This document shows positions 2,783-63,025 of a stretch of 64,000 nt of DNA, piece after piece. Both the position numbers and the translations under genes were made by a program. Positions within the stretch are counted from its first letter, which is position 1; every line of letters begins with the position of its first letter. The stretch comes from an uncultured beta proteobacterium (lineage in GTDB: Bacteria; Pseudomonadota; Gammaproteobacteria; Burkholderiales; Rhodocyclaceae): NCBI GenBank assembly GCA_903908065.1, contig CAIVQO010000011.1, forward strand, positions 62,001 to 126,000, in the 5' to 3' direction. Under the pieces are notes generated by a model. The model had not been told where the DNA came from and did no database searches. It saw only the letters and a program-made list of their open reading frames with translations.

Positions 2783-3581
2783 CGTGGCCGGTGGCCGGCA
2801 GCCCAAAAGTCGGCGCTGGCGACACGGCATTTTCCGTCAATTGTTCGCTGGTGCGGCCAAAACGGCGCTCCCGACGACGATAGGAAAGGATGGCGGCATC
2901 AAGCGCGTCGTCGTCGAAATCGGGCCACAGGGTATCGGTGAAGTACAGCTCGCTGTAGGCAAGTTGCCAGAGCAGGAAGTTGCTGATCCGTTGCTCGCCG
3001 CCGGTCCGGATGAAGAGATCGGGCTCCGGCGCATACGCCATCGCGAGATGCGGTGCCAGATCGGCCTCGCCGAATGCGCCAACCTTTTCCGGATGTGCCA
3101 ACGCCAGTTGGTTCATGGCCTGCAGGATGTCCCAGCGGCCACCATAGTTGGCGGCGATGGTCAGCGTCAGGCGATGGTTGTTCGCCGTCAAGGCCTCGCC
3201 TTCGCGAATTAACGCCACCAGCCGGGGTTCGAAGGCCGACAGGTCGCCAACGACCTTCAGCCTTACCGAATTGGCGTGCAGTTTGCCGATCTCGCTTTGC
3301 AGCGCACTGACGAACAGATTCAGCAGGAAGGAGACTTCCTCGACCGGGCGGCGCCAGTTTTCCGAGGAAAAGGCGAACAGGGTCAGGTACTCGACTCCGC
3401 GAGCGATGCAGGCTTTGACCATGGAACGCACGGTCTCCACGCCACGCTTGTGGCCGGCGACGCGCGGCATGAATCGCTTCTTGGCCCACCGCCCGTTGCC
3501 ATCCATGATAATGGCAAGGTGGCGGGGCACGGCCCCCACTTCCGGGATGGCCTGGGTCGAACTGGTGAATTTCCTTGGCAT
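2775..3581 (-). CDS. uppS: Isoprenyl transferase (undecaprenyl diphosphate synthase)
   Basis: cis-Prenyltransferase that elongates farnesyl diphosphate with isopentenyl diphosphate to the C55 lipid carrier for peptidoglycan and O-antigen synthesis. The 268-aa product carries MDGNGRWA (metal-binding Asp and P-loop-like region), [18 protein letters not shown], the FIRTGGE segment and the basic ERRFGRT. The roughly 20 residues after ERRFGRT are not conserved in the family. They are encoded partly by a copy of the dispersed palindrome described separately (2805-2833). The gene sits between frr and cdsA as in most betaproteobacteria. Confidence 0.96.
2805..2833 (+). repeat. Dispersed palindromic element, copy 1
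   Basis: The left arm AAAAGTCGGCG is followed by the 9-nt loop CTGGCGACA and a shortened right arm CGGCATTTT. The core AAAGTCGGCGCTGGCG (2806-2821) is identical to four other places in the window. The 22 bases 2807-2828 are identical to 17215-17236. The element lies in the non-conserved C-terminal tail of uppS. Confidence 0.7.
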
Positions 3582-3599
3582 TCCGTCCCCCCCTACTGA

Positions 3600-4157
3600 T
3601 CAGACGGCCATCAGATCCTTCTCTTTTTCCGCCAGCAGGCGATCGACCTCGGCGACATAGCGATCCGTCAGGCGCTGCATGTCATCCAGCGCCTTGCGCT
3701 CGTCGTCCTCGCCGATTTCCTTCTTTTTCAGCGCGTCCTTAAGGTGGGCGATGGCATCGCGACGCAGGTTGCGGATTGCGACTTTGGCGTTCTCGCCTTC
3801 GTGCTTGATCACCTTGATCAGGTCGCGGCGACGCTCTTCGGTCAGCGCCGGCATCGGCACGCGGATCAACTCGCCCTGGGAGGCCGGGTTCAAGCCTAGG
3901 TCCGAATCCCGGATCGCCTTTTCAACCTTGGCCACCATGGGCTTTTCCCAAGGCTGGACACCGATGGTGCGTGCATCTATGAGTGTGAGGTTGGCCACCT
4001 GGTTGATCGCCACCATGTTGCCGTAGTACTCGACCTGAACATGATCGAGGAGGCCCGTATGCGCCCGCCCGGTGCGGACTTTTGACAGATCCGCCTTCAG
4101 CGACTCCAGGCTTTTCTGCATCTTCTGTTCGGAAGTTTTTTTCAGCTCAGGAATCAT
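3600..4157 (-). CDS. frr: Ribosome recycling factor
   Basis: With EF-G it splits the post-termination ribosome. The 185-aa length is standard. The sequence is recognisable throughout ([13 protein letters not shown] near residue 20, [19 protein letters not shown], then the [15 protein letters not shown] segment and a C-terminal coiled coil). The ATG at 4157 (MIPELKK) gives the family N-terminus; an open frame continues upstream but overlaps pyrH. The start is 8 bases after the pyrH stop, in the pyrH-frr order typical of the operon. Confidence 0.97.
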
Positions 4158-4165
4158 GCAGCCTC

Positions 4166-4882
4166 CTACACGTGAACCAGTGTGCCTTCGTCCTCCCCCA
4201 TCACCACGCGCTTGAGCGCGCCGGACTTGAAGATCGAAAACACGTTGATCGGCAATTTCTGGTCGCGGCACAGCGCGAACGCCGTGGCATCCATGACCGC
4301 CAGGTTGCGGCCGATCGCCTCGTCGAAACTGATGCGGGCGAAACGCGTCGCGCTCGGATCCTTCTTCGGATCGGCGGTGTAGATGCCATCGACCTTGGTC
4401 GCCTTGAGCACGATCTCGGCGCCGATTTCGGATCCGCGCAGCGCGGCAGCAGTATCAGTGGTGAAGAAGGGATTGCCTGTGCCGGCACCGAAAATCACGA
4501 CCTTGCCTTCCTCAAGATAGCGAATGGCCTTGCCGCGGATGTAGGGCTCGACCACCTGCTCGATGTTGAGCGCCGACTGCACGCGGGCGTTGATGCCTGC
4601 CTGGCGCATGGCATCGGAAAGCGCCATGGCATTCATCACCGTCGCCAGCATGCCCATGTAGTCGGCAGTGGCGCGATCCATGCCGGTGGCCGTCCCGGCC
4701 AGCCCACGGAAGATGTTGCCGCCGCCAATCACCACGCCGGTCTCAACGCCGAGATCAGTGACGGCCTTGATTTCGGCCACGATCGCACCCAGCACCGCCG
4801 TGTTGATGCCGTAGGCATCGTCCCCCATCAAGGCCTCGCCGGAGAGCTTGAGCAGGATGCGGCGGAACTTGGGTGCAACCAT
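4166..4882 (-). CDS. pyrH: UMP kinase
   Basis: Bacterial-type hexameric UMP kinase of the amino-acid kinase family, phosphorylating UMP to UDP with ATP. The 238-aa product shows the N-terminal KLSGEALMG, the [12 protein letters not shown] loop, [13 protein letters not shown] and [18 protein letters not shown]. All are characteristic of PyrH rather than of acetylglutamate or aspartate kinase. It starts 14 bases after the tsf stop. Confidence 0.97.
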
Positions 4883-4896
4883 GGCGCCCTCCCGGA

Positions 4897-5796
4897 TTAC
4901 TTGTTGCCGGCTGCGGCGGCAGCCTGGGCGGCCACCTCGGCGGCGAAGTCGCTTACCTTCTTCTCGATGCCTTCGCCGACGATGTAGAGGGTGAAGCCTG
5001 CCACCGACGCTGCCTTCTGCTTCAGCAGCTGTTCGATGGTCTGCTTGCCGTCCTCGGCCTTGACGAACACTTGCCCGAGCAGGGTCACGTCCTTGAGGTA
5101 CTTTTGCACCGTGCCTTCGGCAATCTTCTCCAGCATGGCTTCCGGCTTGCCTGCCTCGCGCGCTTTCTCGATGGCGATGCGGCGCTCGGTATCGAGCAAC
5201 TCGGCCGGTACCCCGGAGGAATCCAGCGCCTTGGGCTTCGATGCGGCAATGTGCATGGCGATGTCCTTGGCCAGCTGCTCATCGCCACCAACCACATCGA
5301 CCAGGACGCCAATCTTCGATCCACCGTGGATATAGGACGCCAGCTTGCCCTTGGCCTCGACGCGAACGAAGCGCCGAATGCTCATGTTCTCGCCGATCTT
5401 TCCCACCAGCGCGGTGCGCGTCGACTCGACGGTACCCTCGCCCAGCGGCAGCGCCGACAGCGCGGCCACGTCGGCCGGCGCCTTGTCGGCCACCAGCTTG
5501 GCGCAATCGGCAGCCAACTTGAGGAACTCGTCGTTCTTGGCAACGAAATCGGTTTCGCTGTTGATCTCGAAAATGCTGCCCAGCTTGCCATCGCCAGCGA
5601 CGTGAATCGCCACCACACCCTCGGCAGCAACGCGGGCGGCTGCCTTGGTCGCCTTGTTGCCCAGCTTGACGCGCAGGATTTCCTCGGCCTTGGCCATGTC
5701 GCCACCGGCTTCGGTCAGCGCCTTTTTGCACTCCATCATCGGCGCGTCGGTCTTCTCGCGCAGTTCCTTGACCATGCTTGCGGTAATTTCCGCCAT
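4897..5796 (-). CDS. tsf: Elongation factor Ts
   Basis: Guanine-nucleotide exchange factor for EF-Tu. The 299-aa product has the UBA-like N-terminal domain with [12 protein letters not shown], the core with [16 protein letters not shown], and an Ala-rich C-terminus. The ATG at 5796 (MAEITASMV) gives the conserved N-terminus and has a purine-rich GGAGTGAAGAGA upstream. The 92-base gap to rpsB holds no obvious gene; it is GC-rich without a clear terminator. Confidence 0.97.
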
Positions 5797-5888
5797 TCTC
5801 TTCACTCCAAAACAGTACATCACTCGGGAACCGGCGCCGCGGGGCGCAACGCACCCGCTGGACCGGCCGCCCTCCCTGCGCGGACAAC

Positions 5889-6638
5889 TTACTCGGCGGC
5901 GTCCTCGACCTCGACGAACTCGTCGTCGCCGGCCAGCTGCTGCACCACTTCGTTGATCGACTGGCTCTTGCCTTCCAGGATCGCATCGGCCACGCCGCGC
6001 GCATAGAGGCGAATCGCACCGGACGAATCGTCGTTGCCCGGAATGACGTAGGCCACTCCTTCCGGCGAGTGGTTGGTATCAACCACGCCGATCACCGGGA
6101 TGCCCAGCTTGCCGGCCTCGGTAATCGCAATCTTGTGGTAACCGACGTCGATCACGAAAATTGCGTCGGGCAGACCGCCCATGTCCTTGATGCCGCCGAT
6201 GGACTTGCGCAGCTTGTCGATCTCGCGCTGACGGGTCAGGGCTTCCTTCTTGGAGAGCTTCTCCTGGCCGCCTTCCTCGATCGCCTGCTCAAGATCCTTG
6301 AGGCGCTTGACGGAAAGCTTCAGCGTCTTGAAGTTGGTCATCATGCCGCCCAGCCAGCGGTCATCGACATAGGGCATGCCGCAACGCTGTGCCTCTTCGG
6401 CAACAATTTCGCGCGCCTGGCGCTTGGTGCCGACGAACAGGATGGTGCCCTTCTTGGCCGCCATCTTGCGGACGAAGGCCATCGCCTCGTTGTACTTGGC
6501 GAGGGTCTTCTCGAGGTTGATGATGTGAATCTTGTTGCGATGGCCGAAAATGAACGGGGCCATCCTGGGGTTCCAGAAACGGGTCTGGTGGCCGAAATGA
6601 ACGCCGGCCTCCAGCATCTGGCGCATGGTAGTGCTCAT
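5889..6638 (-). CDS. rpsB: 30S ribosomal protein S2
   Basis: Small-subunit ribosomal protein needed for S1 binding. The 249-aa product begins with the family signature [20 protein letters not shown] and includes the [14 protein letters not shown] and [11 protein letters not shown] segments. It is the first gene of the rpsB-tsf-pyrH-frr-uppS-cdsA-dxr-rseP series on the minus strand. In many bacteria the rpsB leader binds S2 for autoregulation. The 5' leader here is about 110-130 bases and could do so, but no specific fold was verified. Confidence 0.98.
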
Positions 6639-6762
6639 CGATTGTCTCCGATATGGGTTGAAACCGCCGCCCGGCCGTGCTGCTCAACGCGACTCGCGTT
6701 CAGCCACCCTATCGGCGCCGGGCGTGTGGATTTTGCCCGGGACCACCCCGGACAAGCTTGCG

Positions 6763-6792
6763 ATTATAGCCGAGCAGGCGCAATTGGCACAA
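6763..6792 (-). promoter_or_regulatory. Sigma-70 promoter for rpsB operon
   Basis: On the minus strand, -35 TTGTGC (6787-6792) and a perfect -10 TATAAT (6763-6768) are separated by 18 bases. Transcription would start about 6756, giving a leader of roughly 115 bases before the rpsB ATG. It is the only clear promoter in the gap between rpsB and the divergent cyclase-like gene. Confidence 0.75.
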
Positions 6793-6924
6793 GGCCTGCC
6801 TATGACCTGCTGCGACATTGCGGCAGGTCTTCGCCCGGTCGCTGCAAGCCTATGCGATAAGTAGTATCTTCCACATTCCGCGCGCATTTTTCCCAGACTC
6901 CCACTCAGCCGGAGCACACGATTC

Positions 6925-7683: not shown

Positions 7684-7760
7684 GCCTGGCCAGCCGACTC
7701 CTTGCCTGCCACCACTCCGGCGCAGGCTAGAATGCGGGTTCCCAACCGCTAGCCGCACTC

Positions 7761-8570: not shown

Positions 8571-8601
8571 GGACCACCTCGGGACAAAGGTCGGCCATCG
8601 A

Positions 8602-16604: not shown

Positions 16605-17714
16605 ATGAATTTCGACTTCACCGACGACCAGCGCGCGCTGGCCGACACCGTCCGTCGCTTTGTAGCCAAGGACTACGATTTCGAGCGCCGCCGTGCCATT
16701 CGCGACTCGGCCGCCGGCTGGAGCCGCGCCGTCTGGCAGGAGCTGGCCGAACTCGGCGTACTGGCCATCGGCATCGACGAGGACCATGGCGGCCTCGGCT
16801 ATGGCCCGCTGGAAACCGGGCTGGCGATGAATGCCTTTGGCGCCGCCTTGCTGGTCGAACCCTATCTTGCCGCCGCTGTGGTCGCCCCGGCACTGATTCG
16901 CCGTGCCTCCAGCACCGACTTTCAACGCCACTGGCTGCCGCGGATCGCCTCGGGCGAAAACATCGTGGTGTTCGCGCATCATGACGCCCGCGGCGATCCC
17001 GTGCGCGTCGCCGACGGCGCGCTCAGCGGGCGCAAGACCGTGGCAGCCCACGCCGACTGTGCCGACCTGCTGCTGGTATCGGCGCGGGCCACCGACGGCA
17101 GCACGCGGCTGTTTGCACTCGCCCCGACGACACCGGGCGTCACGCTGCGTAGCTACCCGACGCTCGATGGCCAGCGCGCGGCGGACGTACAGCTCGACCA
17201 GGCCGTGGCCACGGAAGTCGGCGCTGGCGACACGGCGACCGATGCGACGCAGGCCATCGACGCCGCGCTCGACATCGGCCTCGCGGCGCTCTGCGCCGAA
17301 GCCGTAGGCATCATGGAAGCCACCGTGGCCGCCACAGTCGACTACCTCAAGACCCGACGCCAGTTCGGCCAACCCATCGGCCGCTTCCAGGCGCTTCAGC
17401 ATCGCATGGCCGACATGCTGCTGCACCAGGAACAGGCGCGCTCGATGAGCTATCTTGCCGCCATGCACTGCGCCAATCCGGACCAGGTTCTGCGCCAACG
17501 CACGCTGTCCGCCGCCAAGGTCACCGTCGGCCAGGCCTGCCGCTTCATTGCCCAGAACGCGGTGCAGCTGCATGGAGGCATGGGCATGACCGACGAACTG
17601 ATCCTGAGCCACTGGTTCAAGCGCCTCACCGCCATTGAAATGAGCTTCGGCGATACCGATTTCCACTTGCAACGTTTCGCCGCGCAGCTGTCGCGGGGAG
17701 CGCGGGCCGCGTGA
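16605..17714 (+). CDS. Acyl-CoA dehydrogenase, PimD-like small subunit
   Basis: A 369-aa acyl-CoA dehydrogenase homologue. The N-terminus (DFTDDQRALADTVRRFV, then a YDFERRRA segment and GWSRAVWQELAELG) resembles PimD, the small subunit of pimeloyl-CoA dehydrogenase. The C-terminal region that normally carries the catalytic Glu and a GT/SNEIQ motif reads FKRLTAIEMSFGDTDFHLQR instead. A non-catalytic or complementary subunit in an alpha2beta2 enzyme with the preceding gene is therefore likely. It starts 10 bases after its partner. A copy of the dispersed palindrome (17214-17240) encodes an inter-domain stretch at about residues 204-212. Confidence 0.88.
   Translation: MNFDFTDDQRALADTVRRFVAKDYDFERRRAIRDSAAGWSRAVWQELAELGVLAIGIDEDHGGLGYGPLETGLAMNAFGAALLVEPYLAAAVVAPALIRRASSTDFQRHWLPRIASGENIVVFAHHDARGDPVRVADGALSGRKTVAAHADCADLLLVSARATDGSTRLFALAPTTPGVTLRSYPTLDGQRAADVQLDQAVATEVGAGDTATDATQAIDAALDIGLAALCAEAVGIMEATVAATVDYLKTRRQFGQPIGRFQALQHRMADMLLHQEQARSMSYLAAMHCANPDQVLRQRTLSAAKVTVGQACRFIAQNAVQLHGGMGMTDELILSHWFKRLTAIEMSFGDTDFHLQRFAAQLSRGARAA
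17214..17240 (+). repeat. Dispersed palindromic element, copy 2
   Basis: Left arm GAAGTCGGCG, loop CTGGCGACA, right arm CGGCGAC (one mismatch to the perfect complement). Positions 17215-17236 are identical to 2807-2828. The element is inside the second acyl-CoA dehydrogenase gene, in a variable stretch of the protein. Confidence 0.7.
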
Positions 17715-23888: not shown

Positions 23889-25814
23889 ATGACTACCACC
23901 CAAGACAGTACCGCCACGGGGTTCGAGAACCTCGGGCTGGCAAAACCATTGCTCGATGCGCTCGCCGCCGTCGGCTACGAAACCCCATCGCCAATCCAGG
24001 CCACTTGCATTCCTCCACTGCTTGCCGGCCAGGATCTGCTCGGCGAGGCGCAGACCGGAACCGGCAAAACTGCCGCCTTTGCCCTCCCCCTGCTGCAGAA
24101 GATCGATCTGGCCCGCGCCGTGCCGCAGGCCCTGGTGCTGACGCCCACCCGCGAGCTCGCGATCCAGGTTTCCGAGGCGCTGCAAAAATACGCCCACTTC
24201 CTGCCCGGCTTCCATGTCCTGCCGGTGTATGGCGGACAAAGCATGGTGGTGCAGCTGCGTCAGCTTTCACGCGGCGCCCATGTCATCGTCGGCACACCAG
24301 GCCGCGTCATGGACCACCTTGAGCGCAAGAGCCTGATGCTGGACAAGCTGTCGATGCTGGTGCTCGACGAAGCCGACGAAATGCTCCGCATGGGCTTCAT
24401 CGACGACGTCGAGTGGATCCTCGAACACACCCCGGAAACCCGCCAGACGGCGCTGTTCTCGGCGACCATGCCGGACCCGATCCGTCGCGTTGCGCACAAG
24501 CACCTGCGTAACCCGAAGGAAGTCCGCATCAAGGCCGCAACCACCACCGTCGCCGCCATCAGCCAGGCCTACTGCCAGACCCATGCCGGGCAAAAGATGG
24601 AAGCCCTGACCCGTGTGCTGGAAGTCGAGGAAGACCTCGATGCCGCCATCATCTTCGTGCGCACCAAGACCGCCACCGTGGAACTGGCCGAAAAGCTCGA
24701 AGCGCGCGGCTATTCGGTGGCGGCGCTCAATGGCGACCTGACCCAGGGCCTGCGCGAGCAGGTCATCGACCGCCTCAAGGCCGGCAACATCGACATCCTG
24801 GTGGCCACCGACGTCGCCGCGCGCGGCCTCGACGTGCCGCGCATCAGCCACGTCATCAACTTCGACATTCCCTACGACACCGAGGCCTACGTGCACCGCA
24901 TCGGCCGCACCGGCCGCGCCGGCCGTGCCGGCCGCGCCATCCTGTTCATCACGCCGCGCGAGACGCGGATGCTGAAAGCCATCGAATACGCGACGCGGCA
25001 GAAGATCCAGCCGCTGGCGATGCCCAGCCTGTCAGACGTGGCCAACCGGCGCGTAGCGCAGTTTACGCAGCAGATCATCGATGCGCGCAACGAGCAGCGC
25101 CTCGATTTCTTTTTCGACATGGTGCGCAACATCGAGGAAACGCACGGTCTCTCGGCGCGCGAAATCGCTGCCACCCTGGCCTGGCTGCAGCAGCGCGAAC
25201 GCCCTCTGCAAATCGAGGGCGCAAGCGCCGAACGCCCCGCCGCGTCGCCGTATCAGCGCAATGACGAAAAAGTTGCCGTGGCGCCAGCGCCGACTTTTGC
25301 ATCCGAGGATGCGCCGCCGCGCGAAGGGCGTCGCACCGCGCCGGTGGCGCGACGCGAGTTTGCCAGCGACCGCCTGAGCAAGTACCGCATCGCCGTGGGC
25401 CGCAACCAGGGCGTACTGCCCAAGGAAATTGTCGGCGCCATTGCCAACGAAGGCGGCATCGACGGTAAATACATCGGCCAGATCAACCTGTTCGACGATT
25501 ACAGCACCGTCGAACTGCCGGCTGACCTGCCCAGTGAATTGATGGATGCCCTGCAGCGAATTCGCGTACGCCAGGTGCCGCTCAAGACCCGCCCGCTCGC
25601 ACCGGGCGAAGGCGTCGATACGCGGCCTGCGCGACGTCCTTCCCCTGCCCGTGAGGGCGGCAAGCCAGAGTGGAAGAAGTCTGACGACACGCGTCCGGCG
25701 CGCTCCCGCAGCGACGACACTCGCCCCGCGCCCTGGAAGAAGAACGACGGCGCCAAACCACCCGTGAAGAAAGCCGATGCCGCCAAGCCGGCGTGGAAGA
25801 AACGCGAACGCTAG
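23889..25814 (+). CDS. deaD: DEAD-box RNA helicase, DeaD/CsdA type
   Basis: A 641-aa ATP-dependent RNA helicase acting in cold adaptation, ribosome assembly and mRNA decay. It has the Q motif (FENLGL with TPSPIQ), motif [12 protein letters not shown], Ia [30 protein letters not shown], and [16 protein letters not shown] DbpA/CsdA-type RNA-binding domain follows a linker (about residues 495-575, [19 protein letters not shown]). The tail is basic and repetitive (several DDTRPA and KKxD units). The ATG at 23889 (MTTTQDS) is preferred because the upstream in-frame extension is not family-like. The linker contains a copy of the dispersed palindrome. Confidence 0.94.
25268..25298 (-). repeat. Dispersed palindromic element, copy 3
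   Basis: On the minus strand, arm AAAAGTCGGCG, loop CTGGCGCCA, arm CGGCAACTTTT (9 of 11 pairs). Its core is the shared 16-mer (25282-25297). It encodes part of the low-complexity linker between the helicase core and the RNA-binding domain. Confidence 0.7.
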
Positions 25815-33046: not shown

Positions 33047-34151
33047 ATGGAAGCCGAACGCATCAATGCCGTCGCCAACCGCATCGCCGACCTGAGCAAT
33101 CGCGGCGAACAACTGCGGAGGTATCTTTGACTTCGATGGCAAAGCGGAAAAGCTCGCGGAGCTGAACCAGATCCTGGAAGACCCCAAAATCTGGGACGAT
33201 GCGGAACGCGCCCAGGCGCTGGGCAAGGAAAAGAAATCCCTCGAAGCCGTGGTCGGCACCCTTTCCAACGTCACCGGAAAGCTGGCCGATGCGCGTGACT
33301 TGCACGCCCTGGCGCGCGAGGAAGACGACGAGGAAACCATGGCCGCCGTCGAGGGTGACCTGGATGCCACCGAGAAGCTGGTGGCCGACCTCGAATTCCG
33401 CCGCATGTTCGCCAACCCGGCCGACCCGAACAACTGCTTTATCGACATCCAGGCCGGCGCCGGCGGCACCGAAGCCTGCGACTGGGCCAGCATGTTGCTG
33501 CGCCAGTACCTGAAATACTGCGAGCGCAAGGGCTTCAAGACCGAACTCCTGGAACAGACCGACGGCGACGTGGCCGGCATCCGCAGCGCTTCGCTCAAGG
33601 TGGAAGGTGACTACGCCTACGGCTTCCTGCGCACCGAAACCGGCGTGCACCGCCTGGTGCGCAAATCGCCCTTCGATTCTTCGGGCGGGCGCCATACCAG
33701 CTTCGCCAGCCTGTATGTGTACCCCGAGATCGACGACAGCATCGAAGTCGAGATCAACCCGGCTGACCTGCGCACCGACACCTTCCGCGCCTCGGGTGCC
33801 GGCGGCCAGCACATCAACAAGACCGACTCGGCGGTACGCATCACCCACGTGCCGACCGGCATCGTGGTGCAGTGCCAGAACGACCGCTCGCAGCACCGCA
33901 ACCGCGCCGAGGCCATGGCGATGCTGAAGTCGCGTCTTTACGAGCACGAAATGCGCAAGCGCCAGGCCGAAGCCGACAAGCTGGAGGCCGGCAAGACCGA
34001 CGTCGGCTGGGGCCACCAGATTCGCAGCTACGTGCTCGACAACTCGCGCATCAAGGATTTGCGCACCAACGTCGAAATCGCCAACACGCAGAAGGTGCTC
34101 GACGGCGACCTCGATGCCTTCATCGAAGCCAGCCTCAAGCAGGGCGTTTAA
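33047..34151 (+). CDS. prfB: Peptide chain release factor 2, with programmed +1 frameshift
   Basis: Terminates translation at UAA and UGA. The first 27 codons (33047-33127) end at an in-frame TGA (33128-33130). Reading resumes in the +1 frame at GAC 33129 and continues to 34151, giving 367 aa. The product has the RF2 specificity tripeptide SPF ([11 protein letters not shown]) and the peptidyl-transferase GGQ ([15 protein letters not shown]). The frameshift is the normal autoregulation of RF2: scarce RF2 favours frameshifting at CTT TGA. This is not a broken gene. lysS follows 17 bases later, as in many proteobacteria. Confidence 0.96.
33117..33131 (+). promoter_or_regulatory. RF2 programmed frameshift site
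   Basis: GGAGG (33117-33121), acting as an internal Shine-Dalgarno, lies 3 bases before the slippery CTT TGA C (33125-33131). This is the canonical RF2 autoregulatory layout. Confidence 0.95.
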
Positions 34152-34168
34152 CCACACGGAACACCATC

Positions 34169-35676
<1,508 letters not shown>

Positions 35677-35680
<4 letters not shown>

Positions 35681-37497
35681 GCTTTCCGCTGATCCCCGCC
35701 GAACTTGCGTTCGCCGGGGACGGCACTCCATTTTCATCACGCTACGGCGACATCTACCATTCCAGCCAGGGCGGCCTGGAACAGGCCCGCCATGTCTTTC
35801 TCGGCGGCAACCAGCTGCCTGCGCGCTGGAACGACTGCCAGCGCTTCGTCATCCTCGAAACCGGTTTCGGGCTGGGAATAAATTTCCTCGCCACACTGCA
35901 GGCGTGGCGCGCCGTTGGCGACCCTGGCGGGCGACGACTGCACTACGTTGCGGTGGAGAAGCATCCCTTCCGCCTGGACGACCTGAGGCAAGTCCACCTG
36001 AACTGGCCGGAACTTGCGGCCTTTGCCGCGGAACTCCATGCGCAATGGCCACTCCCCCTACCCGGCTTGCATCGCCTGGATCTTGGCGATGTAATCCTGA
36101 CCCTCGCCTTCGGCGACGGTGCCGAGTTGTTGCCCCAGCTCTGCCTTGTCGCCGATGCAATCTACCTCGACGGATTTGCCCCGGATCGCAATCCGGATCT
36201 GTGGTCGGAGGCCGTAGTCGCCCAGCTGCAGCGCCTTTCCGCCCCCGGCACCACACTGGCCACCTGGACCACGGCTGGCGAAATCCGTCGCCGTCTCGCC
36301 AGCGCCGACTTTTTCCTCGAACGAAAGCAGGGCTTCGGCGGCAAACGCGAAATGCTGGTCGGGCATCGGCCCGGCATGTCACCTGCCCGACCCCGATCGC
36401 CAAAACGTATCGCGGTGATCGGTGCCGGCATCGCCGGAGCCGCGACCGCCCATGCCCTCGCCCGGCGCGGTCATCAGGTAACCGTACTCGATGCCGCCAG
36501 CGCTGCTGCCAGTGGCGCCTCGGGTAACCTTGCCGGCGTATTCCGGCCGCTTCCGGCGCTGGACGACGGCAGGCTGGCACGCGTGCTGCGGGCCGGATTT
36601 CTGCTCGGCCGACGTTCGTTCCCCTTGCTCACCGGGACACGGCTGGGCTGGACCGGGGTACTGCACGTCGCCCGCGATGCCAGGCATGAACAGACCCAGC
36701 AGCGGATCGTTGAGCAACATTCGCTGCCTGCTGAGTATTGCCGTTTCGTCACACGTGATGAAGCCTCGCTGCTGGCGGGATCGCCGGTCGCCATGGGTGG
36801 CTGGTGGTTTCCCCAGGCCGGCTGGATCAATCCCCCCAGCCTTTGCCGCAGCCTGTTGGCGGGGATCGACTGCCGCTACAACTTCCCGGTCCGTCGGTTG
36901 CAGAGACAGGGCAGTGCCTGGCGAATCTTCAGCGCCGAAATGGAAATCGAATCCGACACGGTCATCGTTGCCAATGGCATAGGTGCCCCAAGCCTGGTGC
37001 CGGAGTATTCGCTGCCGATCCGTGCAGGTCGCGGAATGGTCAGCCACCTGCCGGAGGCAGCCACGGCTGCCATGGATATCGTAGCCACTCGCCTGGGGTA
37101 TGTGACGCCTCCGATCGATGGCCTGCGTTGCGCCGGAGCCACCCTGCAGGCAGATGACCTCGATACCGCTCCCCGCCTGGCCGACCATGTGGAGAACCTG
37201 TTCCGCCTCGACATGCTGTTTCCAGGCTTTGCGCGCGGGATCGATCCGGCGCAGCTGGATGGCCGCGTATCCTTTCGCCCCATGTCGCCGGATCGCCTGC
37301 CTATGGTTGGCCCACTCGCTGCCAGTGACGGCCTGTGGATCAATGACGGATATGGTGCCAGGGGCCTGGTCTTCGCGTCCATCTGTGCCGAACTGCTGGC
37401 CAGCCAGATCGATGACGATCCCCTGCCACTTGAAGCCGACCTGGTGCGGTCCCTGGCGCCGGAACGCTTCCGGAAGCGCAAATCGGCCGCCAACTGA
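35677..37497 (+). CDS. mnmC: Bifunctional tRNA mnm5s2U34 biosynthesis protein MnmC
   Basis: Completes the wobble-uridine mnm5 modification. The FAD-dependent C-terminal half removes the carboxymethyl group and the N-terminal half methylates the resulting amine with SAM. In the 606-aa product, residues 1-240 hold the methyltransferase ([14 protein letters not shown] motif [18 protein letters not shown]). Residues from about 245 hold the oxidase with the dinucleotide motif [21 protein letters not shown] and a C-terminal [18 protein letters not shown] palindrome copy lies at 36287-36312, in the conserved end of the methyltransferase domain. It is coupled to lysS by ATGA overlap. Confidence 0.95.
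36287..36312 (-). repeat. Dispersed palindromic element, copy 4
   Basis: On the minus strand the order is arm GTCGGCG, loop CTGGCGAGA, arm CGGCGAC (one mismatch), with AAA preceding the first arm. It contains the shared 16-mer (36297-36312). It encodes [10 protein letters not shown] of MnmC, a fairly conserved stretch, unlike most copies. Confidence 0.65.
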
Positions 37498-37593: not shown

Positions 37594-38376
37594 ATGGAAG
37601 CCTCACAGTCCGTCCTTGGCGCCACTCCGGTTGCCGCCTCATCCACGCATCCCCTGCTACTCGTTGCAGCAGGGTCGGTCACCATACTCAGCCTCGCCGG
37701 CGCTTCCTACTTCGCCGGCTGGTTGCCCGGCCCCGCGACACACGCGACCGACAACCGTCCTGTCGTTGCCGCAACTACGGCCACCGCTCCGGTCGCCGTT
37801 CCGGCGGTCAGCCCGCCGATTTCCGTGACCCAATCGGTCAGCCTGCCGCAGGAAAAGCCCAAAGCGGCGAGCCGTCCGACCGAAACCGTTGCCCCTGTTG
37901 CGCGCCGTAGCGTGGCCAACCCCGTCGTGCGGGCACCGGAACCCGTGTCCGTACCCACCATCGCCGTAGCTTCAGCGCCGACTCCCGTTGCCGCCCCCGT
38001 GCCCGCGATTTGTCGCGAATGCGGCGTCGTGGAATCGGTGCGCGAAGTCGCGGTGGAAGCCAAGGGCAGCGGCGGTGGCGCCGTTGCCGGCGGCATTGTC
38101 GGCGGCGTGATCGGCAACCAGTGGGGGCGTGGCGCGACCCGCGACATCGCCACGGTGCTGGGCGCGATCGGCGGCGCCTATGCCGGCAATCACATCGAAA
38201 AATCGATCAAGGAGAGCAAGCGCTATGACGTCAGCGTTCGCTTCGAGGATGGCAGCACGCGCAGCTTCAGCAGCGACACGCTGCCGACATGGCATGTCGG
38301 CGACCGTGTGAGGCTTCAGAACGGTTTGCTGACCAGCGGCGGTGGCAGGTCGTCGATGGACCTGGGCAGCATCTGA
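37594..38376 (+). CDS. Glycine-zipper 2TM domain envelope protein
   Basis: A 260-aa protein. An N-terminal hydrophobic anchor (about residues 22-46) leads into a long Pro/Ala/Val/Thr-rich linker (47-135). Two cysteines in ICRECGVV come next, then a glycine-zipper segment (GGGAVAGGIVGGVIGNQWGRG, followed by ATVLGAIGGAYAGNHIEK) typical of SlyB/Rick_17kDa proteins. A C-terminal beta region (SVRFEDGSTRSFSS, GDRVRLQNG) completes it. Family members sit in the envelope and influence its integrity. The last 61 bases overlap the end of the convergent lipoprotein gene. A diverged palindrome copy lies in the linker. Confidence 0.85.
   Translation: MEASQSVLGATPVAASSTHPLLLVAAGSVTILSLAGASYFAGWLPGPATHATDNRPVVAATTATAPVAVPAVSPPISVTQSVSLPQEKPKAASRPTETVAPVARRSVANPVVRAPEPVSVPTIAVASAPTPVAAPVPAICRECGVVESVREVAVEAKGSGGGAVAGGIVGGVIGNQWGRGATRDIATVLGAIGGAYAGNHIEKSIKESKRYDVSVRFEDGSTRSFSSDTLPTWHVGDRVRLQNGLLTSGGGRSSMDLGSI
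37960..37983 (-). repeat. Dispersed palindromic element, diverged copy 5
   Basis: Arms ATCGCCG and CGCCGAC(T) flank a 9-base loop TAGCTTCAG. Compared with the copy at 56903-56932 it keeps the right arm and loop length but has two changes in the loop. It sits in the low-complexity linker of the glycine-zipper protein. It is included as probable because arm, loop length and loop ends all agree. Confidence 0.4.
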
Positions 38377-55150: not shown

Positions 55151-55161
55151 CCGCCACCGCG

Positions 55162-55192: not shown

Positions 55193-55200
55193 GGCTACAT

Positions 55201-56445: not shown

Positions 56446-56960
56446 TTGCCGTCACCTTCACTTTTGCCCAGCAGGCTCGCGGCCTGGCGGTGTTCGCTTT
56501 CGCTCAACTCGCTTCCCGCCTGCGCCGAACGCTTGCGCAACTTGACTGCCAGGAACGCCAGAGCAATCACCAACAGTAGGAAGGGGCCGCCCCACAACAG
56601 CCAGGTGGTGCTCTTTACCGGCGGCCGATAAAGCACGAAATCGCCATAGCGCTGCACCATGAAATCGATGATTTCCTTGTCGCTCTTGCCGGCCACGATC
56701 ATGCCGCGGATCTCGCGCTTCATGTCGGAGGAAAAGGAGGACTGGGAATCCGCGATGCTCTGCCCCATGCAGGTCAGGCATCGCAACTCCTCGGCCAGCC
56801 GGTTGACGCGCGCCTCCACCACCGGGTCGCCCAGCGGTTGCGCCGCGCCGCCCTCGGCGGCAAAAGCGGGTGCCAGAATGAATGTGGAAAACGCGAGGAC
56901 CAGAAATCGGCGTAGCGCCAGCGCCGACTTTCGCATCGCAAGCAAAAGCAGATCAGCCAC
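56442..56960 (-). CDS. ccmH: Cytochrome c maturation protein CcmH
   Basis: Periplasmic membrane-anchored thiol oxidoreductase that handles apocytochrome cysteines. The 172-aa product has a signal peptide and the family motif LRCLTCMGQSIADSQ (CxxC; most CcmH read RCxxCQNQxIADS). VAGKSDKEIIDFMVQRYGDFVLYRPP follows, and a membrane helix near 118-140. ATG 56960 overlaps ccmG by 8 bases; ATG 56936 is an alternative and would start exactly within the dispersed palindrome at 56903-56932, which encodes the signal peptide's n-region (KSALALRRF). Confidence 0.93.
   Translation of the reverse strand: MADLLLLAMRKSALALRRFLVLAFSTFILAPAFAAEGGAAQPLGDPVVEARVNRLAEELRCLTCMGQSIADSQSSFSSDMKREIRGMIVAGKSDKEIIDFMVQRYGDFVLYRPPVKSTTWLLWGGPFLLLVIALAFLAVKLRKRSAQAGSELSESEHRQAASLLGKSEGDGK
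56903..56932 (-). repeat. Dispersed palindromic element, copy 6
   Basis: On the minus strand: arm GAAAGTCGGCG, loop CTGGCGCTA, arm CGCCGATTTC. The arms pair apart from one unpaired base. It contains the shared 16-mer (56916-56931) and encodes the start of the CcmH signal peptide. Confidence 0.75.
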
Positions 56961-57483: not shown

Positions 57484-57492
57484 CTAAGCTCC

Positions 57493-59472
57493 TTAAGCCG
57501 CCACAGCGGACCGCTCATCCGCCAGATTTTCACGTTGTTTGATGCGGTAGCGGCGATCGGATGCCGCCAGCAAACCGCCCAGGGCCATCAGCAAGCAGCC
57601 GCCCCAGATCCACACCACCAAGGGCTTGTGCTGTACTCGAACGATCCAGGACACATCATCGACCGGTTCGCCAAGCGAAACGTAAAGGTCGCGGAAGATG
57701 CCGCTGTCGATTGCCGCCTCGGTCATGGGCATGCGCTGCACCAGATACATGCGCTTTTCCGGATGCATCACCGTGACTGGCGTCCCGCCGCGGCTCACGT
57801 TCACGGTCGCGCGTACCGCCATGTAATTCGGCCCGCGGATTTCCTGCAGGTCCACCAGTTGGAAGTCGTAGCCGCCGGCGCTTGCCCGCTCGCCCGGTTG
57901 CATCTTGACCTCGCTTGCCGTCTCGTAGGACTTGACCACGGCAACGCCCAGAATGAACACGCCGATGCCGATATGCGCCAGCAGCATGCCCCATTTTGCC
58001 AATGGCATCGCGCGCATGCGCGCCGGTATCGCCTGGCTGCCGCCACCGCCGTGCATCAGGTGCTCGACCACCTGGCTCAGACTGGAGACGATGGCCCACA
58101 CACCCAACAGCACGCCAAACGCCAGTACCGGCGCCCAGCGCCCCAGCGCCAGGGGCAAGGCGACGGCCGCGGCAACCGCCAGGCCGACCGACCAGCGCAG
58201 GCGCGGCCAGAAATCGATCAGTCGCGCCTGTTTCCAGCGGGCGAACGGCCCCAGCCCCATCAGCAGGATCAGCGGCGCCATGAGCGGGAAAAAGACGGCC
58301 TCGAAGTAAGGGGGGCCTACGGAAACCTTGCCCAGGCCCAGCGCGTCGAGAAACAAGGGGTACAGGGTGCCAAGCAGCACGGCACCGGCGGCAACCACCA
58401 GCAGCACGTTATTGACCAGCAGGAAGGTCTCGCGCGAAAACATCTCGAACTTGCCGCCCAGCCCCACCGACGGTGCACGCCAGGCGTACAGGACCAGTGA
58501 AACGCCAACCACCAGCACCAGGAAGCCAAGCACGAAAACGCCGCGGCGCGGATCGGTCGCGAAGGCATGGACCGAGGTCAATACGCCCGAGCGCACCAGG
58601 AAGGTACCGAGCAAGGAAAGCGAGAAGGCCATGATCGCCAGCAGCACGGTCCAGTTCTTGAATCCGCCGCGCTTTTCGGTGACCGCCAGGGAATGGATCA
58701 GCGCCGTACCCACCAGCCAGGGCATGAAGGATGCATTCTCGACCGGATCCCAGAACCACCAGCCGCCCCAGCCCAGTTCGTAATAGGCCCACCATGAGCC
58801 GATCGCAATGCCGAGCGTGAGAAACATCCAGGCGATGGTGGTCCAGGGGCGCGACCAGCGCGCCCAGGCTGCGTCGAGGCGACCGGAGATGAGTGCCGAG
58901 ACGGCGAAGGCGAATGCCACGGCAAATCCGACATAGCCCATGTACAGCAGCGGCGGATGGATCGCCATGCCCGGGTCCTGCAGCAGCGGATTGAGGTCGC
59001 GCCCGTCGGCGGCGGCAGGCAGCAGGCGCTCGAAGGGATTCGAGGTCAACAACAGAAAGAGGACGAAGCCGACCGTGATCAAGCCCATCACACCCAGTGC
59101 ATTGGCCACGGTTTGCAGCGGAAGACGCTGGCTGAAGGCGGCTACGGCGACGGTCCACAGCGAGAGGATGAAGACCCAGAGCAGCATCGAGCCTTCATGG
59201 CCACCCCAGACCGCCGTCACCTTGTAGAACGTCGGCAGCATCGAGTTCGAGTTCTGCGCCACGTAGAGCACGGAGAAATCGTTGCCGACGAAGGCTGTGA
59301 CGAGGCAGGCAAACGCCGTTCCCATCGCCAGGAATTGCGCCGCCGCCGCGGGACGGGCGAGGCTCATGAGGCGTACGTCGCCGCGCAGGCCGCCGACAAT
59401 GGGCACCACGCCCTGCACCAGCGCAATGCCCAGCGCCAGGATCAAGGAAAACTGGCCAAGTTCAGGAAACAT
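57493..59472 (-). CDS. ccmF: Cytochrome c haem lyase subunit CcmF
   Basis: Large integral membrane protein that ligates haem to apocytochrome c. The 659-aa product has about 14 membrane helices. The WWD haem-handling domain is WGGWWFWDPVENASFMPWL (residues about 233-251). Other recognisable stretches are MLPTFYKVTAVWGGHEGSMLLW, HPPLLYMGYVGF and RSGVLTSVHAFATDP. ccmABCDE are not in the window and must lie elsewhere, or be functionally replaced. The gene follows a TPR gene by 69 bases. Confidence 0.96.
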   Translation of the reverse strand: MFPELGQFSLILALGIALVQGVVPIVGGLRGDVRLMSLARPAAAAQFLAMGTAFACLVTAFVGNDFSVLYVAQNSNSMLPTFYKVTAVWGGHEGSMLLWVFILSLWTVAVAAFSQRLPLQTVANALGVMGLITVGFVLFLLLTSNPFERLLPAAADGRDLNPLLQDPGMAIHPPLLYMGYVGFAVAFAFAVSALISGRLDAAWARWSRPWTTIAWMFLTLGIAIGSWWAYYELGWGGWWFWDPVENASFMPWLVGTALIHSLAVTEKRGGFKNWTVLLAIMAFSLSLLGTFLVRSGVLTSVHAFATDPRRGVFVLGFLVLVVGVSLVLYAWRAPSVGLGGKFEMFSRETFLLVNNVLLVVAAGAVLLGTLYPLFLDALGLGKVSVGPPYFEAVFFPLMAPLILLMGLGPFARWKQARLIDFWPRLRWSVGLAVAAAVALPLALGRWAPVLAFGVLLGVWAIVSSLSQVVEHLMHGGGGSQAIPARMRAMPLAKWGMLLAHIGIGVFILGVAVVKSYETASEVKMQPGERASAGGYDFQLVDLQEIRGPNYMAVRATVNVSRGGTPVTVMHPEKRMYLVQRMPMTEAAIDSGIFRDLYVSLGEPVDDVSWIVRVQHKPLVVWIWGGCLLMALGGLLAASDRRYRIKQRENLADERSAVAA

Positions 59473-59541
59473 TGAATACTCCCAACGCGGATCGCTCCGC
59501 AGAAAAACAGGCGAAAAGCAGACGCAAACTACGTGCCAACA

Positions 59542-60102
59542 CTACTTGACGGGCGGGGCCGCCCGATCCCGGGTGATCCGGTCCCGCCACTCCCAAACCG
59601 CTGCCTCTGCGCGACGCCGGAACGGGTCATCCTTCGCGGCCCGATGCAACCAGGTCTCCATCGCCTCCAGGGCGCCGCGGTAATCGCCCAGCCCTTCGAA
59701 GGCTTCCGCCATGCCGAAATAGGCATTGAGCTGATTGGGGTTAAGCGTCGTCGCGCCGTCGAAGAAATCGAGGGCCTCCTTATAGCGTTTCTGTCCCAAC
59801 AAGGCAAACCCCATGTTTACGTGAGCCTCGGGCATGGTCGGCGCAAGCTGCAGGACCCGGTGAAAGGCGGTCATTGCATGATCGTATTGCTTGGCGTGCA
59901 GCATCATCACGCCCTGCGTGAAGCGCTTGTCAATTTCCTCCTTGCGCTTCGAGTCGACATGCGCCTTGAGGTCGGCCTTGTCGGCGCCGTTGATCCAGCG
60001 ATCGAGCAAAAAGCCGCCGCCCGCGACGAGCGCTACGGTCAGCGCCAAAGCGACGATCCGGACATCCACCCGCTTGCGCACCGGCACGCTTGCCTCAGCC
60101 AT
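59542..60102 (-). CDS. Membrane-anchored TPR protein
   Basis: A 186-aa protein with one N-terminal membrane helix (VRIVALALTVALVAGGGFLLD, about 14-34) and three tetratricopeptide repeats (about 58-160: KRFTQGVMMLHAKQYDHAMTAF, AHVNMGFALLGQKRYKEALDFF, AYFGMAEAFEGLGDYRGALEAM). Its layout recalls the TPR half of CcmI/CcmH fusions. It may present apocytochromes or a dedicated partner to the neighbouring haem proteins. It overlaps the upstream oxidase-like gene by 8 bases and precedes ccmF. Confidence 0.85.
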   Translation of the reverse strand: MAEASVPVRKRVDVRIVALALTVALVAGGGFLLDRWINGADKADLKAHVDSKRKEEIDKRFTQGVMMLHAKQYDHAMTAFHRVLQLAPTMPEAHVNMGFALLGQKRYKEALDFFDGATTLNPNQLNAYFGMAEAFEGLGDYRGALEAMETWLHRAAKDDPFRRRAEAAVWEWRDRITRDRAAPPVK

Positions 60103-61453
60103 GGCGCGCCATCCGCAGGCTGACCGCCGGCCACAACTGGCGCAGCACGAGTACCAGGAAATACAGGATTCCAGCCGTGGCCAGCGTCCCGCCGAGCCCC
60201 ATCACGATGCGCGACAGGGTTTCGACGCTGAACTCGATGCCGACGTTGCCGGCGATCTTGCGCGGCGCGCCCATCAGCCCGGCGCCGGCCAGGCCGAACA
60301 TCATCAGCAGGATGCCGTTCCCATAAAGCCGCAATTGCCATTCGACGGCCCTGCGCGCCGGCGAGCCGCAGCCCAGGCAAGCCAGTACGCCATGGGTCAA
60401 TCCCATGAAGGCCAGCGTCACCGCGCCGATGGTGCCGTGGTAATGCGCGGTAACCAGCGTGGTCTGGCCGTCGATCATCGCCCCCAAGGCAATGCCGGCG
60501 ACTAGCAGGATCAGCGAAAGCGAAAACCCGGTCGCCGGAACGATTCCGGCGCGCCAGTGCGCGAGCATTAGCCAAACCGCGCATACCAGCGGAACCTGCC
60601 AGCTGGCCCACTGCATCAGGCTGGTGAAGGCTTTGAAGTAAGCCGGGCTGACGGGGTCCAGCAGCAGCAGGAGCGGCGCGATCAGCCCCGGCGCCGCCCC
60701 GATCGCAAGCAGGAATTTCAAGCGCGCGGCGGAAGGAAGCGGGATGCGGGCCGACGTCAGCCCCAGCCAGGCGAGCAGCATCAGCGTCGTCAGGCTGAAT
60801 TGCCAGATGTGGCCGGCGCCCCAGAACAGGGATTCAAACCGCGCGAGACCGAACAGCTCTGTAGGCAGCAACACCGCCGTAACTACGAAAACCAGCAAGG
60901 CGGCAAGCACCACGCTCGCCGCCAGCTTAAGCCCGAGTCGCATCACGTCAGACAGGGAGTCGGCGCTGGCGGTACGGCGATGCTCGGCGCCATCGTGCAT
61001 CACCCGTGCCGCCATGAGCAGTACCGCCAAACCGTAGGCGCCCAGGCCGGCAAAAAACCAGGGGCTGTCGAGGACCGGCAGGTAATTCGCCATCAAGGGC
61101 CGGATTGCGCCGAAGGCTGGCGACAGGGCCATCAGCAAGGCACCGGCGGCCGCCAGCGCCAGAGCAAACCAGTGCCAGCGCCCGGGCACGCGCACCAGAC
61201 CCAGGCTCCACAACACGCCGGCGAAGGCCATGAACCAGACCCATTGCGACAGATTGACGTGCAGCGTCAGCGCCACGCGGTAGAACTCGGTCCCGGGAAA
61301 CAGGGCACCCAAACCGGGCACCCGGGCAAACACGATAAGTATGGCGAACAGGCTGGACGCCGCCACTGCGGCCGTCGCCAGGACCAGCCAGCCTAGGGCC
61401 AGGCTCTCGCTGCCCGCGCCGCGTGCAGACGGCAGCATGGACTCCAGCCTCAC
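60095..61453 (-). CDS. Haem-copper oxidase subunit I-like membrane protein
   Basis: A 452-aa protein of about 12 membrane helices distantly like cytochrome oxidase subunit I. Candidate haem ligands are His in ALTLHVNLSQWVWF (helix 2 position) and in VTAHYHGTIGAVTL (helix 10 position, H-x-H). WGAGHIWQF aligns with the WxxGHxxxY site, but Tyr is Gln. No HH pair for the copper site was found. It therefore probably binds haem without being a normal oxidase. The GTG at 61453 overlaps the preceding TGA and has AAGGGGG upstream; ATG 61438 is an alternative. It sits between a CcsA-like gene and ccmF, suggesting haem transfer or a quinol/cytochrome module. A palindrome copy falls in a loop. Confidence 0.7.
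   Translation of the reverse strand: MRLESMLPSARGAGSESLALGWLVLATAAVAASSLFAILIVFARVPGLGALFPGTEFYRVALTLHVNLSQWVWFMAFAGVLWSLGLVRVPGRWHWFALALAAAGALLMALSPAFGAIRPLMANYLPVLDSPWFFAGLGAYGLAVLLMAARVMHDGAEHRRTASADSLSDVMRLGLKLAASVVLAALLVFVVTAVLLPTELFGLARFESLFWGAGHIWQFSLTTLMLLAWLGLTSARIPLPSAARLKFLLAIGAAPGLIAPLLLLLDPVSPAYFKAFTSLMQWASWQVPLVCAVWLMLAHWRAGIVPATGFSLSLILLVAGIALGAMIDGQTTLVTAHYHGTIGAVTLAFMGLTHGVLACLGCGSPARRAVEWQLRLYGNGILLMMFGLAGAGLMGAPRKIAGNVGIEFSVETLSRIVMGLGGTLATAGILYFLVLVLRQLWPAVSLRMARHG
60956..60982 (+). repeat. Dispersed palindromic element, copy 7
   Basis: Left arm GAGTCGGCG, loop CTGGCGGTA, right arm CGGCGAT. The 14 bases AGTCGGCGCTGGCG are shared exactly with the other copies. It encodes part of a hydrophilic loop (RTASADSLSD on the other strand) of the oxidase-like protein. 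Confidence 0.6.
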
Positions 61454-62265
61454 ACCGCCCCCTTGTGCGGCGATTCCGAGATGAAGGGAACGCCGAAGAA
61501 GGTGAGAAAGGCAAAAACGAATACGCCAAGGATCATCCACGCCCCCACGACCGGACTTGATTTCATGGTCACGCGCCAATGCAAGGCGAATGCCAGCATG
61601 ATCCAGGTAATGAAAGACCAGGTTTCGAGTGGATCCCAGGCCCAGTAGCGGCCCCAGGCATCCTGCGCCCAGATCGCGCCGGAAATCAGCATCAGCGTCT
61701 GGAAGATGATGCCCAGGGCCATGAAGCGGTAGGCCAGCTCGTCGAGGCGGTTGTCGCTAGGCAAGCTCTCAAAACGGGAAACGCCGATGCCGGCGCGACG
61801 CAGCAAGACAACGCCGGCCATGCCGACCGCGACCAGCACCGTACCGAGGAACAGCTTGGACAAGCTGACGTGGATGTACAGCCACGGTGTGCGGAAGCTG
61901 CGCGGGAAATGGCCATCGTGCGTACCGGACAAGGTCATCCAGCCAAGCATGATGAAAATGATGGGCATCACCACCGCAGCCGTACCACGGATCGACGGGT
62001 AGCGCCAGTAGGCGAAGGCAAAGATCAGGCTGAAACTCCAGACATTGCTGGCCAGGATCTCGAACAGCGTGATGAAGGGTCCATGACCCAGCCGCTCCCA
62101 GCGTAAACCCAGCGCAACGCTGAGCAGCAACACGCCGAGCAGCAGAGTCGCGAAGACAAAGCGATGCGGAGATTTTTTCAGCACCACGCCAAAGATCGCA
62201 ACCACGCCTGACAGGACGTAACTGACCACGGCCACCCAGAGGATCTGGAGTTCGCGCTGCTCCAT
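61450..62265 (-). CDS. ccsA: CcsA/CcmC-family haem-handling protein
   Basis: A 271-aa integral membrane protein of about eight helices with the WWD signature GAIWAQDAWGRYWAWDPLET near residues 202-221 and flanking histidines (HFPRSFRTPWLYIHVSLS; FALHWRV). The sequence is closest in style to CcsA (ResC, system II) rather than to CcmC. System II proteins normally pair with CcsB/ResB, which is not seen here. ATG 62265 is used; a GTG four codons upstream is possible. It is the first gene of the minus-strand set and is coupled to the oxidase-like gene by GTGA overlap. Confidence 0.85.
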   Translation of the reverse strand: MEQRELQILWVAVVSYVLSGVVAIFGVVLKKSPHRFVFATLLLGVLLLSVALGLRWERLGHGPFITLFEILASNVWSFSLIFAFAYWRYPSIRGTAAVVMPIIFIMLGWMTLSGTHDGHFPRSFRTPWLYIHVSLSKLFLGTVLVAVGMAGVVLLRRAGIGVSRFESLPSDNRLDELAYRFMALGIIFQTLMLISGAIWAQDAWGRYWAWDPLETWSFITWIMLAFALHWRVTMKSSPVVGAWMILGVFVFAFLTFFGVPFISESPHKGAV

Positions 62266-62350
62266 CAGCGGCCGCACCCGTCACGAACAACCGGGCCAAA
62301 CGACGTCCGGCGGTAAGATGACGTCTTCGAAACTCGTAAAATCATTGCGT

Positions 62351-62989
62351 ATGAATGGATGGACATGGACCGGTAAACCCTTGGGGCAGCACGCCGCCAG
62401 CCACCTAGTGACCATGGCCCTGCTGATCGGTTCCGCGGGGGTCGGGGCCCAGGGCACACCGGGCGCGAACCCGATCGCGAATTGTATCGAATGCCATGGC
62501 ACGGATGGCCTGGGCAATGAACCCGATTTCCCCCACCTCAATGGCATGCCGGAGCACTTGCTGAAGAACATGCTCGATGCCTTTCGGGCCGGCAAGCGCC
62601 CGCCCAAGGTTCGCATCCATCGCGAGATCCCGGCTGACGACGTGGCACTGATCGCCAAGCACTATGCCCAGCAAAAGGCCGTCCGCCCCAAGTCCGCGAC
62701 CCAGCCGGAGCTGGTCGCCCGCGGCGAATCCCTTTACCAGCAACGCTGCGCGGACTGCCATCTTGACAACGGGCGCGACTCCGACAAGGAGGCCCCGCTT
62801 ACTGCCGGACAGTCGTTGCCGTATCTTGTCGCCCAAACGCTCGCCTACAAAAACGGGGAGCGCAAGTTTCCCTACCTGATGGATGGCGCCTACCGCAACC
62901 TGAGCGACGAAGACCTTACCGCCATCGCCCATTTCTTCGCCGCCCAGGATCAGATCGCACCGGCCCAGGGACGACGCCGGCGGCGCTGA
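62351..62989 (+). CDS. Dihaem cytochrome c (c4/FccA-like)
   Basis: A 212-aa exported cytochrome with two haem sites, CIECH (45-49) and CADCH (133-137). The spacing and context (CHGTDGLGNEPDFPHLNGMPEHLLKNML) are typical of cytochrome c4 or the cytochrome subunit of flavocytochrome c. The signal peptide is long (HAASHLVTMALLIGSAGVGAQG) and the C-terminus is very basic (GRRRRR). Candidate distal Met residues are present in both halves. It diverges from the CcsA-like gene with an 85-base gap. A TAAAAT at 62337-62342 lies too near the ATG for a normal leader. Confidence 0.9.
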   Translation: MNGWTWTGKPLGQHAASHLVTMALLIGSAGVGAQGTPGANPIANCIECHGTDGLGNEPDFPHLNGMPEHLLKNMLDAFRAGKRPPKVRIHREIPADDVALIAKHYAQQKAVRPKSATQPELVARGESLYQQRCADCHLDNGRDSDKEAPLTAGQSLPYLVAQTLAYKNGERKFPYLMDGAYRNLSDEDLTAIAHFFAAQDQIAPAQGRRRRR

Positions 62990-62994
62990 GCGTC

Positions 62995-63025
62995 GAAAGT
63001 CGGCGCTGGCGAGACGCCGACATTC
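62995..63025 (+). repeat. Dispersed palindromic element, copy 8 (intergenic, best hairpin)
   Basis: Arms GAAAGTCGGCG and CGCCGACATTC pair at 10 of 11 positions around the loop CTGGCGAGA. It lies in the 68-base gap between two convergent genes, 6 bases after the cytochrome stop. It is the only intergenic copy and the one with the best stem, so it may also act as an mRNA 3'-end hairpin. Confidence 0.8.

Follow-up and report, generated by a model that had tools for sequence, protein, structure and literature searches.

Copies of the motif in the 64-kb window

The sequence analysed here (the window) is a stretch of 64,000 nucleotides from an uncultured Rhodocyclaceae bacterium, positions 62,001 to 126,000 of contig CAIVQO010000011.1 in assembly GCA_903908065.1 (3.84 Mb in 103 contigs, hereafter G000). 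Within it, a short motif recurs inside and between genes, its unit being RAAA-GTCGGCGCTGGCG-NN-ACGGCGA, about 27 bp long and without conserved flanks. The initial annotation had described a palindromic element in eight copies, all of which were found where it had placed them, while a ninth, at 16896-16924 on the minus strand, had been missed. The copies and the open reading frames (ORFs) around them are the following:

2804..2832, plus strand: motif copy at the junction of UppS-type and CdsA-type ORFs (from ORFs and Pfam), kept in the related genome G008
16896..16924, minus strand: ninth copy, in an acyl-CoA dehydrogenase gene; hairpin-inserted forms at the orthologous site in G011, G003 and G023
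17212..17240, plus strand: motif copy in the same acyl-CoA dehydrogenase gene as the 16896 copy, peptide VGAGDTA
25271..25299, minus strand: motif copy in the gene of a DEAD-box RNA helicase, lying between the DeaD_dimer and DbpA matches
36286..36314, minus strand: motif copy inside an mnmC-type gene, gapless against six relatives of other genera
37959..37987, minus strand: diverged copy, scoring 30 bits, in the gene of a glycine-zipper protein, the G008 version being closer to the consensus
56905..56933, minus strand: motif copy near the start of a CcmH-type ORF, beside a redoxin-type ORF
60954..60982, plus strand: motif copy inside ORF 60095-61579, which has a weak match to COX1 under the cut-off
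62994..63022, plus strand: motif copy immediately 3' of ORF 62318-62989, with CGCCGAC as its second arm

The exact words said to be shared were also present, AAAGTCGGCGCTGGCG being common to five copies and a 22-mer to those at 2805 and 17214. A total of seven exact occurrences of GTCGGCGCTGGCG were counted in the window, and 28 places were found at up to two mismatches, compared with 9.9 expected (none of 100 shuffles reached 28). In the whole of G000, the same 13-mer appeared 92 times on one strand and 102 times on the other, 194 in total, versus none for the reversed pattern. As first described, the motif is a dispersed family, far above chance, present on both strands and in several reading frames and going beyond protein conservation. 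The two-arm pattern originally proposed gave 60 places at up to three mismatches against 50.7 expected, which is not above chance, the signal lying in the first arm and the loop.

No described RNA family was found at the motif in an Rfam scan of the window, where only a tRNA reached the threshold. The initial annotation had not recognised the family, and no description of the motif was found in the literature searched either, with no match to the exact 13-mer GTCGGCGCTGGCG. A literature search on uptake sequences in Rhodocyclaceae returned nothing, and one on palindromes in Sulfuritalea returned only unrelated work, judged by title and the start of the abstract.

Consensus and genus variants

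An alignment of 108 copies showed a conserved block running from about -4 to +21 with a sharp stop, made up of R-A-R-A, GTCGGCGCTGGCG, two free bases and ACGGCGA, with an information content of about 40 bits. The scores of the sites were bimodal: 142 sites exceeded 20 bits and none fell between 15 and 20 in the 825 kb scanned (with a position-specific scoring matrix trained on the same sequences that were later scored), while the control had none at 13 bits or more. Furthermore, the sampled high-copy genera, represented by small sets of 5-92 copies each, differed slightly in their consensus, for instance ...CTGGtGAtACGGCG in g104, ...ACGGCAc in g19 and ...GccGGCG..ACGGtG in g86 (only five copies).

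Host and distribution across genomes

Among the named matches listed, most were Sulfuritalea and unclassified metagenome-assembled genomes (MAGs) of Rhodocyclales or Rhodocyclaceae, and for this reason the genus of the window is probably Sulfuritalea; Sulfurisoma, Rugosibacter and Propionivibrio were found as well. The records named Sulfuritalea sp. (L121, L124 and L140) matched G000 or G002, a single-contig genome of the same genus, at 82-89%.

A 19-base pattern of the motif occurred in all 31 genomes of this genus, with 1 to 306 copies each, and beyond it in one other genus with 132 copies and in 14 of the remaining 69 relatives with 1-7. With a looser pattern, 62 of the 199 genomes of the family matched and 137 did not; 21 genomes in six genera held 51-474 copies, and the other 41 matching genomes 1-12. 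Outside the family the motif was rare, appearing in two of 40 genomes of the same order (1 and 3 copies) and in six of the 368 other genomes of a class-wide sample (1-2 copies each). A MAG labelled Gammaproteobacteria (Modern_marine_glass_biofilm.mb.13; L143, L171, L195 and L210) carried several copies, being either a mislabelled bin or a genuine carrier outside the family. A single origin of the high-copy state was considered and rejected: on a tree of one protein (the class II tRNA synthetase at 33872-35677 of the window, 30 genomes) the high-copy label was clustered, yet it needed five changes, at least three of them forced.

Placement, spacing and reading frame

In 460 kb of G002, 93 copies were found (202 per Mb, about 0.2 per kb), 44 of them on one strand; over the whole genome the strands held 150 and 156 copies, so that neither G002 nor G000 showed a strand bias. 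The spacing of the 93 copies was more even than random (coefficient of variation 0.76 vs. 0.985 in simulations, P = 0.0023), the dispersion index over 20 kb being non-significant by itself (P = 0.09). A polar replication motif of the KOPS (FtsK orienting polar sequence) kind was rejected, as copies on both strands were intermixed along 23 sampled stretches of G002. Moreover, non-coding DNA was preferred, with 34 of the 93 copies being intergenic compared with 22% of random places, according to home-made gene calls with a coding fraction of 0.77. The 55 copies within coding sequences were strongly uneven among frames (chi-square 36, 5 degrees of freedom) and used mainly two of them, encoding VGAGxTA (23 copies) and AVxPAPT (14).

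An artefact of composition or codon usage deserves almost no weight. The high GC content of the motif and its frequent location in coding sequence speak for one, but it is refuted by the absence of the reversed pattern from a genome with 194 copies, by the 137 family genomes without the looser pattern and by the share of intergenic copies.

Apparent origin in place, conservation and decay

To judge from alignments of orthologous sites, the motif seems to be written over sequence that was already there and not to be inserted. In 29 groups of sites with an anchored orthologue lacking the plain motif, the net length difference was 0 in 12 and -3 in four, and none was near -27. These groups were merged by flank similarity, so that one site may count twice (two +24 rows are one site), and the class lacking the plain motif includes hairpin-inserted forms, which account for the values of +24 and +36 and for one of the two values of +27. 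At the 17212 site, many other genomes of the genus carried a different sequence in a footprint of the same length. In MnmC, eight of 30 loci yielded a usable motif region (the window's own, six relatives and one false frame, in G123), and the six relatives, all of other genera, aligned without gaps through the codons occupied by the motif. The MnmC of G005 (G005:C69:89194-91110) was only 50% identical to that of the window, the neighbouring tRNA-synthetase protein being 90% identical, a possible gene replacement.

Once present, the motif is conserved above its flanks. At 23 sites recognisable in two species, which conditions the values on both sites scoring as such, mean identity rose from 0.81 in the flanks to 0.95 in the core and 0.93 in the second arm, and was lowest in the two free bases, at 0.62; the means were calculated per site because a single site accounted for 119 of the 172 pairs, and the orthologue sets depend heavily on one syntenic block. 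The comparison with G008 was possible for six of the nine window copies, and all six were kept. At the 16896 site, all 19 genomes of the genus that were aligned carried the motif, either plain or with an insert. Degraded copies were found in G017, a genome of the same genus with a single exact copy, in which nine degraded matches appeared in 193 kb (control, 0). At nine distinct places of G017 opposite intact copies of other genomes, four relics of 18-23 bits were detected.

Stem pairing, hairpin inserts and mobile elements

The single strands of the motif are able to fold, and the initial annotation had suggested that pairing of the two arms was maintained. Nevertheless, the second arm CGCCGAC was not the rule, CGGCGA being the commonest form, and therefore most copies have a mismatch in the middle of the arms and do not maintain the pairing of the stem. 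In 416 copies there was no covariation: the stem pairs were no better paired than in shuffles, double changes were absent or near chance, and the central pair (stem positions 4 and 18) was a conserved G-G mismatch. The motif as a maintained palindrome is not supported.

The element inserted in the manner of Rickettsia palindromic elements (RPEs) or repetitive extragenic palindromic (REP) sequences, which had been named as known analogies, is not supported either, given the lack of any insertion-sized length difference at the 29 site groups and the gapless MnmC alignment. RPEs, which the motif resembles in its in-frame presence within protein genes, are longer insertions, while the motif seems to overwrite in place. 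As for a linked REP-associated tyrosine transposase (RAYT), no Y1_Tnp match was found in the window's own genome, nor in another nine of the 22 high-copy genomes (10 in total), while 12 have one. According to PMC3733652, GTAG and CGTC REP elements and their RAYTs share with the motif a size of 20-40 bp, a high copy number and the presence of some copies inside genes; REPs are palindromes, mostly intergenic and often near RAYTs, unlike the motif, which has no stem covariation, no insertion signature and no Y1_Tnp match in the genome of the window. What stands of the first interpretation is the dispersed, non-chance family, and what is not supported is the maintained palindrome, the inserted element and the RAYT link.

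Some copies carried an extra 36-nt hairpin after GCTGG, in either orientation, or 24-27 nt after AAAGT, the latter module with TATGC..GCGGTATCCC; hairpin modules were found in the orthologues L066, L063 and L070, and their lengths were divisible by three. At the 16896 site, 16 of the 19 genomes had the plain motif, G011 had 24 additional nucleotides, and G003 and G023 had 36 in opposite orientations. These forms are read as secondary insertions into the motif, and single sites may derive from a longer ancestor that lost its hairpin. A further type of palindromic repeat, a variable hairpin followed by GGTATCCC, was at times nested in the hairpin modules (L076 at about 6547 and L131 at about 7367, both on the minus strand).

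An inserted palindromic mobile element of the REP/RAYT, RPE or miniature inverted-repeat (MITE) type, with the 27-mer as the remnant of a longer hairpin, would account for the 61-bp forms with an inner hairpin in both orientations at orthologous sites, and for copies in phage contigs and in accessory genes, those of restriction-modification among them. With no length difference of about 27 nt at any of the 29 site groups, a gapless MnmC, a stem lacking covariation around a conserved G-G mismatch and 10 of 22 high-copy genomes without Y1_Tnp, the palindromic mobile element is not supported, and we judge it improbable.

Phage contigs and accessory genes

Lone copies in low-copy or distant genomes lay in genes such as those of HsdS-like and HsdR-like restriction subunits, a DNA methylase and a YgjP-like peptidase. 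The motif was also found in at least 120 stretches of viral contigs, with 171 sites in 1.08 Mb, which leaves about 47 sites per Mb beyond the one by which each stretch was retrieved; portal, head or tail genes were present in five of the seven motif-bearing viral contigs scanned. One viral contig (L253:881-2242) held five copies, the first four at a spacing of 316 bases. Among named phages and plasmids, a single 31-base query gave only partial matches of 34-38 bits with a coverage of at most 81%, a search that multiply diverged copies could escape.

Proposed interpretation as an uptake-like signal and competing explanations

The motif may be a 'watermark' of the genome that acts like a DNA uptake sequence (DUS) or uptake signal sequence (USS), the signals of Neisseria and Haemophilus. 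In this proposal, a non-mobile 27-bp signal, RAAAGTCGGCGCTGGCGNNACGGCGA, would arise in place in permissive DNA, and a sequence-specific DNA-recognising process would drive it to a strict consensus and hold it there, the likeliest process being preferential uptake and recombination of signal-bearing DNA from kin. The data show the family with its sharp consensus, the missing insertion signature, better conservation than in the flanks, regular spacing without strand bias, the choice of frames, the variants between genera and the degraded copies of one genome; the recognising machinery and its action in DNA uptake are inferred. We hold the uptake-like reading tentatively, at somewhat below an even chance.

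The comparison with known systems is informative on both sides. The traits of uptake signals described in PMC1626085 were found here, except for density and close inverted pairs: like the Pasteurellaceae USS, the motif has a strong consensus, no orientation bias, regular spacing, no insertion signature, variants by subclade and a preference for non-coding DNA with most copies still in genes. It differs from the USS, a 9-bp core with AT-rich flanks in that source, in being about 27 bp and 40 bits, and in occurring in a genus without ComEA over the cut-off. Similarly, PMC3630211 describes DUS dialects in Neisseriaceae, with which the motif shares variants at genus level, permissive sites in and between genes, and degraded copies in one genome, as suggested there for lost specificity; unlike the DUS, its sequence is unrelated and longer, and no close inverted pairs were seen among the listed copies.

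Several results weigh against an uptake signal. Canonical ComEA did not exceed the cut-off in any of 15 genomes of the genus, including G002, and was found in nine of 49 genomes, seven of them low-copy, and so does not track copy number. ComEC (42 of 42 genomes), DprA (48 of 49) and a ComP_DUS-type pilin (62 of 65) were also present in low-copy genera and are therefore non-discriminating; owing to this and to the ComEA result, the motif is not filed as a DUS or USS. The density of about 0.2 per kb is below the value of about 1 per kb for DUS and USS, and the information content is far above that of their cores. Moreover, the nearest opposite-strand pair of exact 13-mers in the 460 kb of G002 was about 310 bp apart (no dedicated search for close inverted pairs was made), hairpin inserts interrupt the motif in some copies, phage contigs carry it, and five of the nine places in G017 had no relic.

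Two other mechanisms acting in place were weighed. A site on the chromosome bound by an architectural protein of the cell interior (with a role in the nucleoid, in segregation or in replication), arising through point mutations wherever the sequence is permissive and distributed evenly over both strands, would fit the in-place origin, even spacing, use of both strands, conservation above flanks and genus variants equally well, and would require no ComEA. Yet the approximately 770 sites per genome (extrapolated) need only about 13 bits by our own calculation, while about 40 are present in the motif; a surplus of this kind is typical of drive or copying, and therefore drive is indicated rather than plain binding; the range of 1 to 306 copies inside one genus, the lack of polarity in the sampled chromosome and the presence in phage contigs also make a site of this kind unlikely. 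Templated overwriting, in which gene conversion or annealing of single-stranded DNA at near-match sites writes the whole unit in one step, would explain the gap in the score distribution, the free bases differing more than the flanks, and six gapless sites without the element, where flank identity was 0.82-0.90 and mean footprint identity only 0.59. We regard it as improbable, as neither enzyme nor template was found, the choice of frame follows small or flexible residues as selection would give, and the comparison covers six sites, with many gapped pairs left out.

A broader form of the uptake-like reading must be considered doubtful. It would comprise a third independent system of the uptake-signal type, beyond those of Neisseriaceae and Pasteurellaceae, in several Rhodocyclales genera, based on a 27-bp signal of some 40 bits and on a receptor route other than ComEA. 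Small in-frame hairpin parasites would land preferentially in copies of this signal, and the copies would be carried along with phages and restriction-modification genes to other families. In 2006, according to PMC1626085, no naturally transformable bacteria other than Pasteurellaceae and Neisseriaceae were known to have uptake sequences. If the motif were a true uptake signal, such signals would have originated a third time, here in a much longer form and in several environmental genera with variants, and these variants together with one decaying genome would let the receptor and the drive be found by comparison. Should it be something else, there would have to be another process, no less in need of explanation, by which sequences of 40 bits are written in place hundreds of times in each genome. 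In both cases, DNA of phages and accessory genes that came from these genera may be recognisable by the motif.

Finally, other repeated words were found in the 460 kb of G002, with CAGATTTCGCAGAT appearing nine times and TGCGTCATCTGCGG seven times (L090-L109 and L085-L087).

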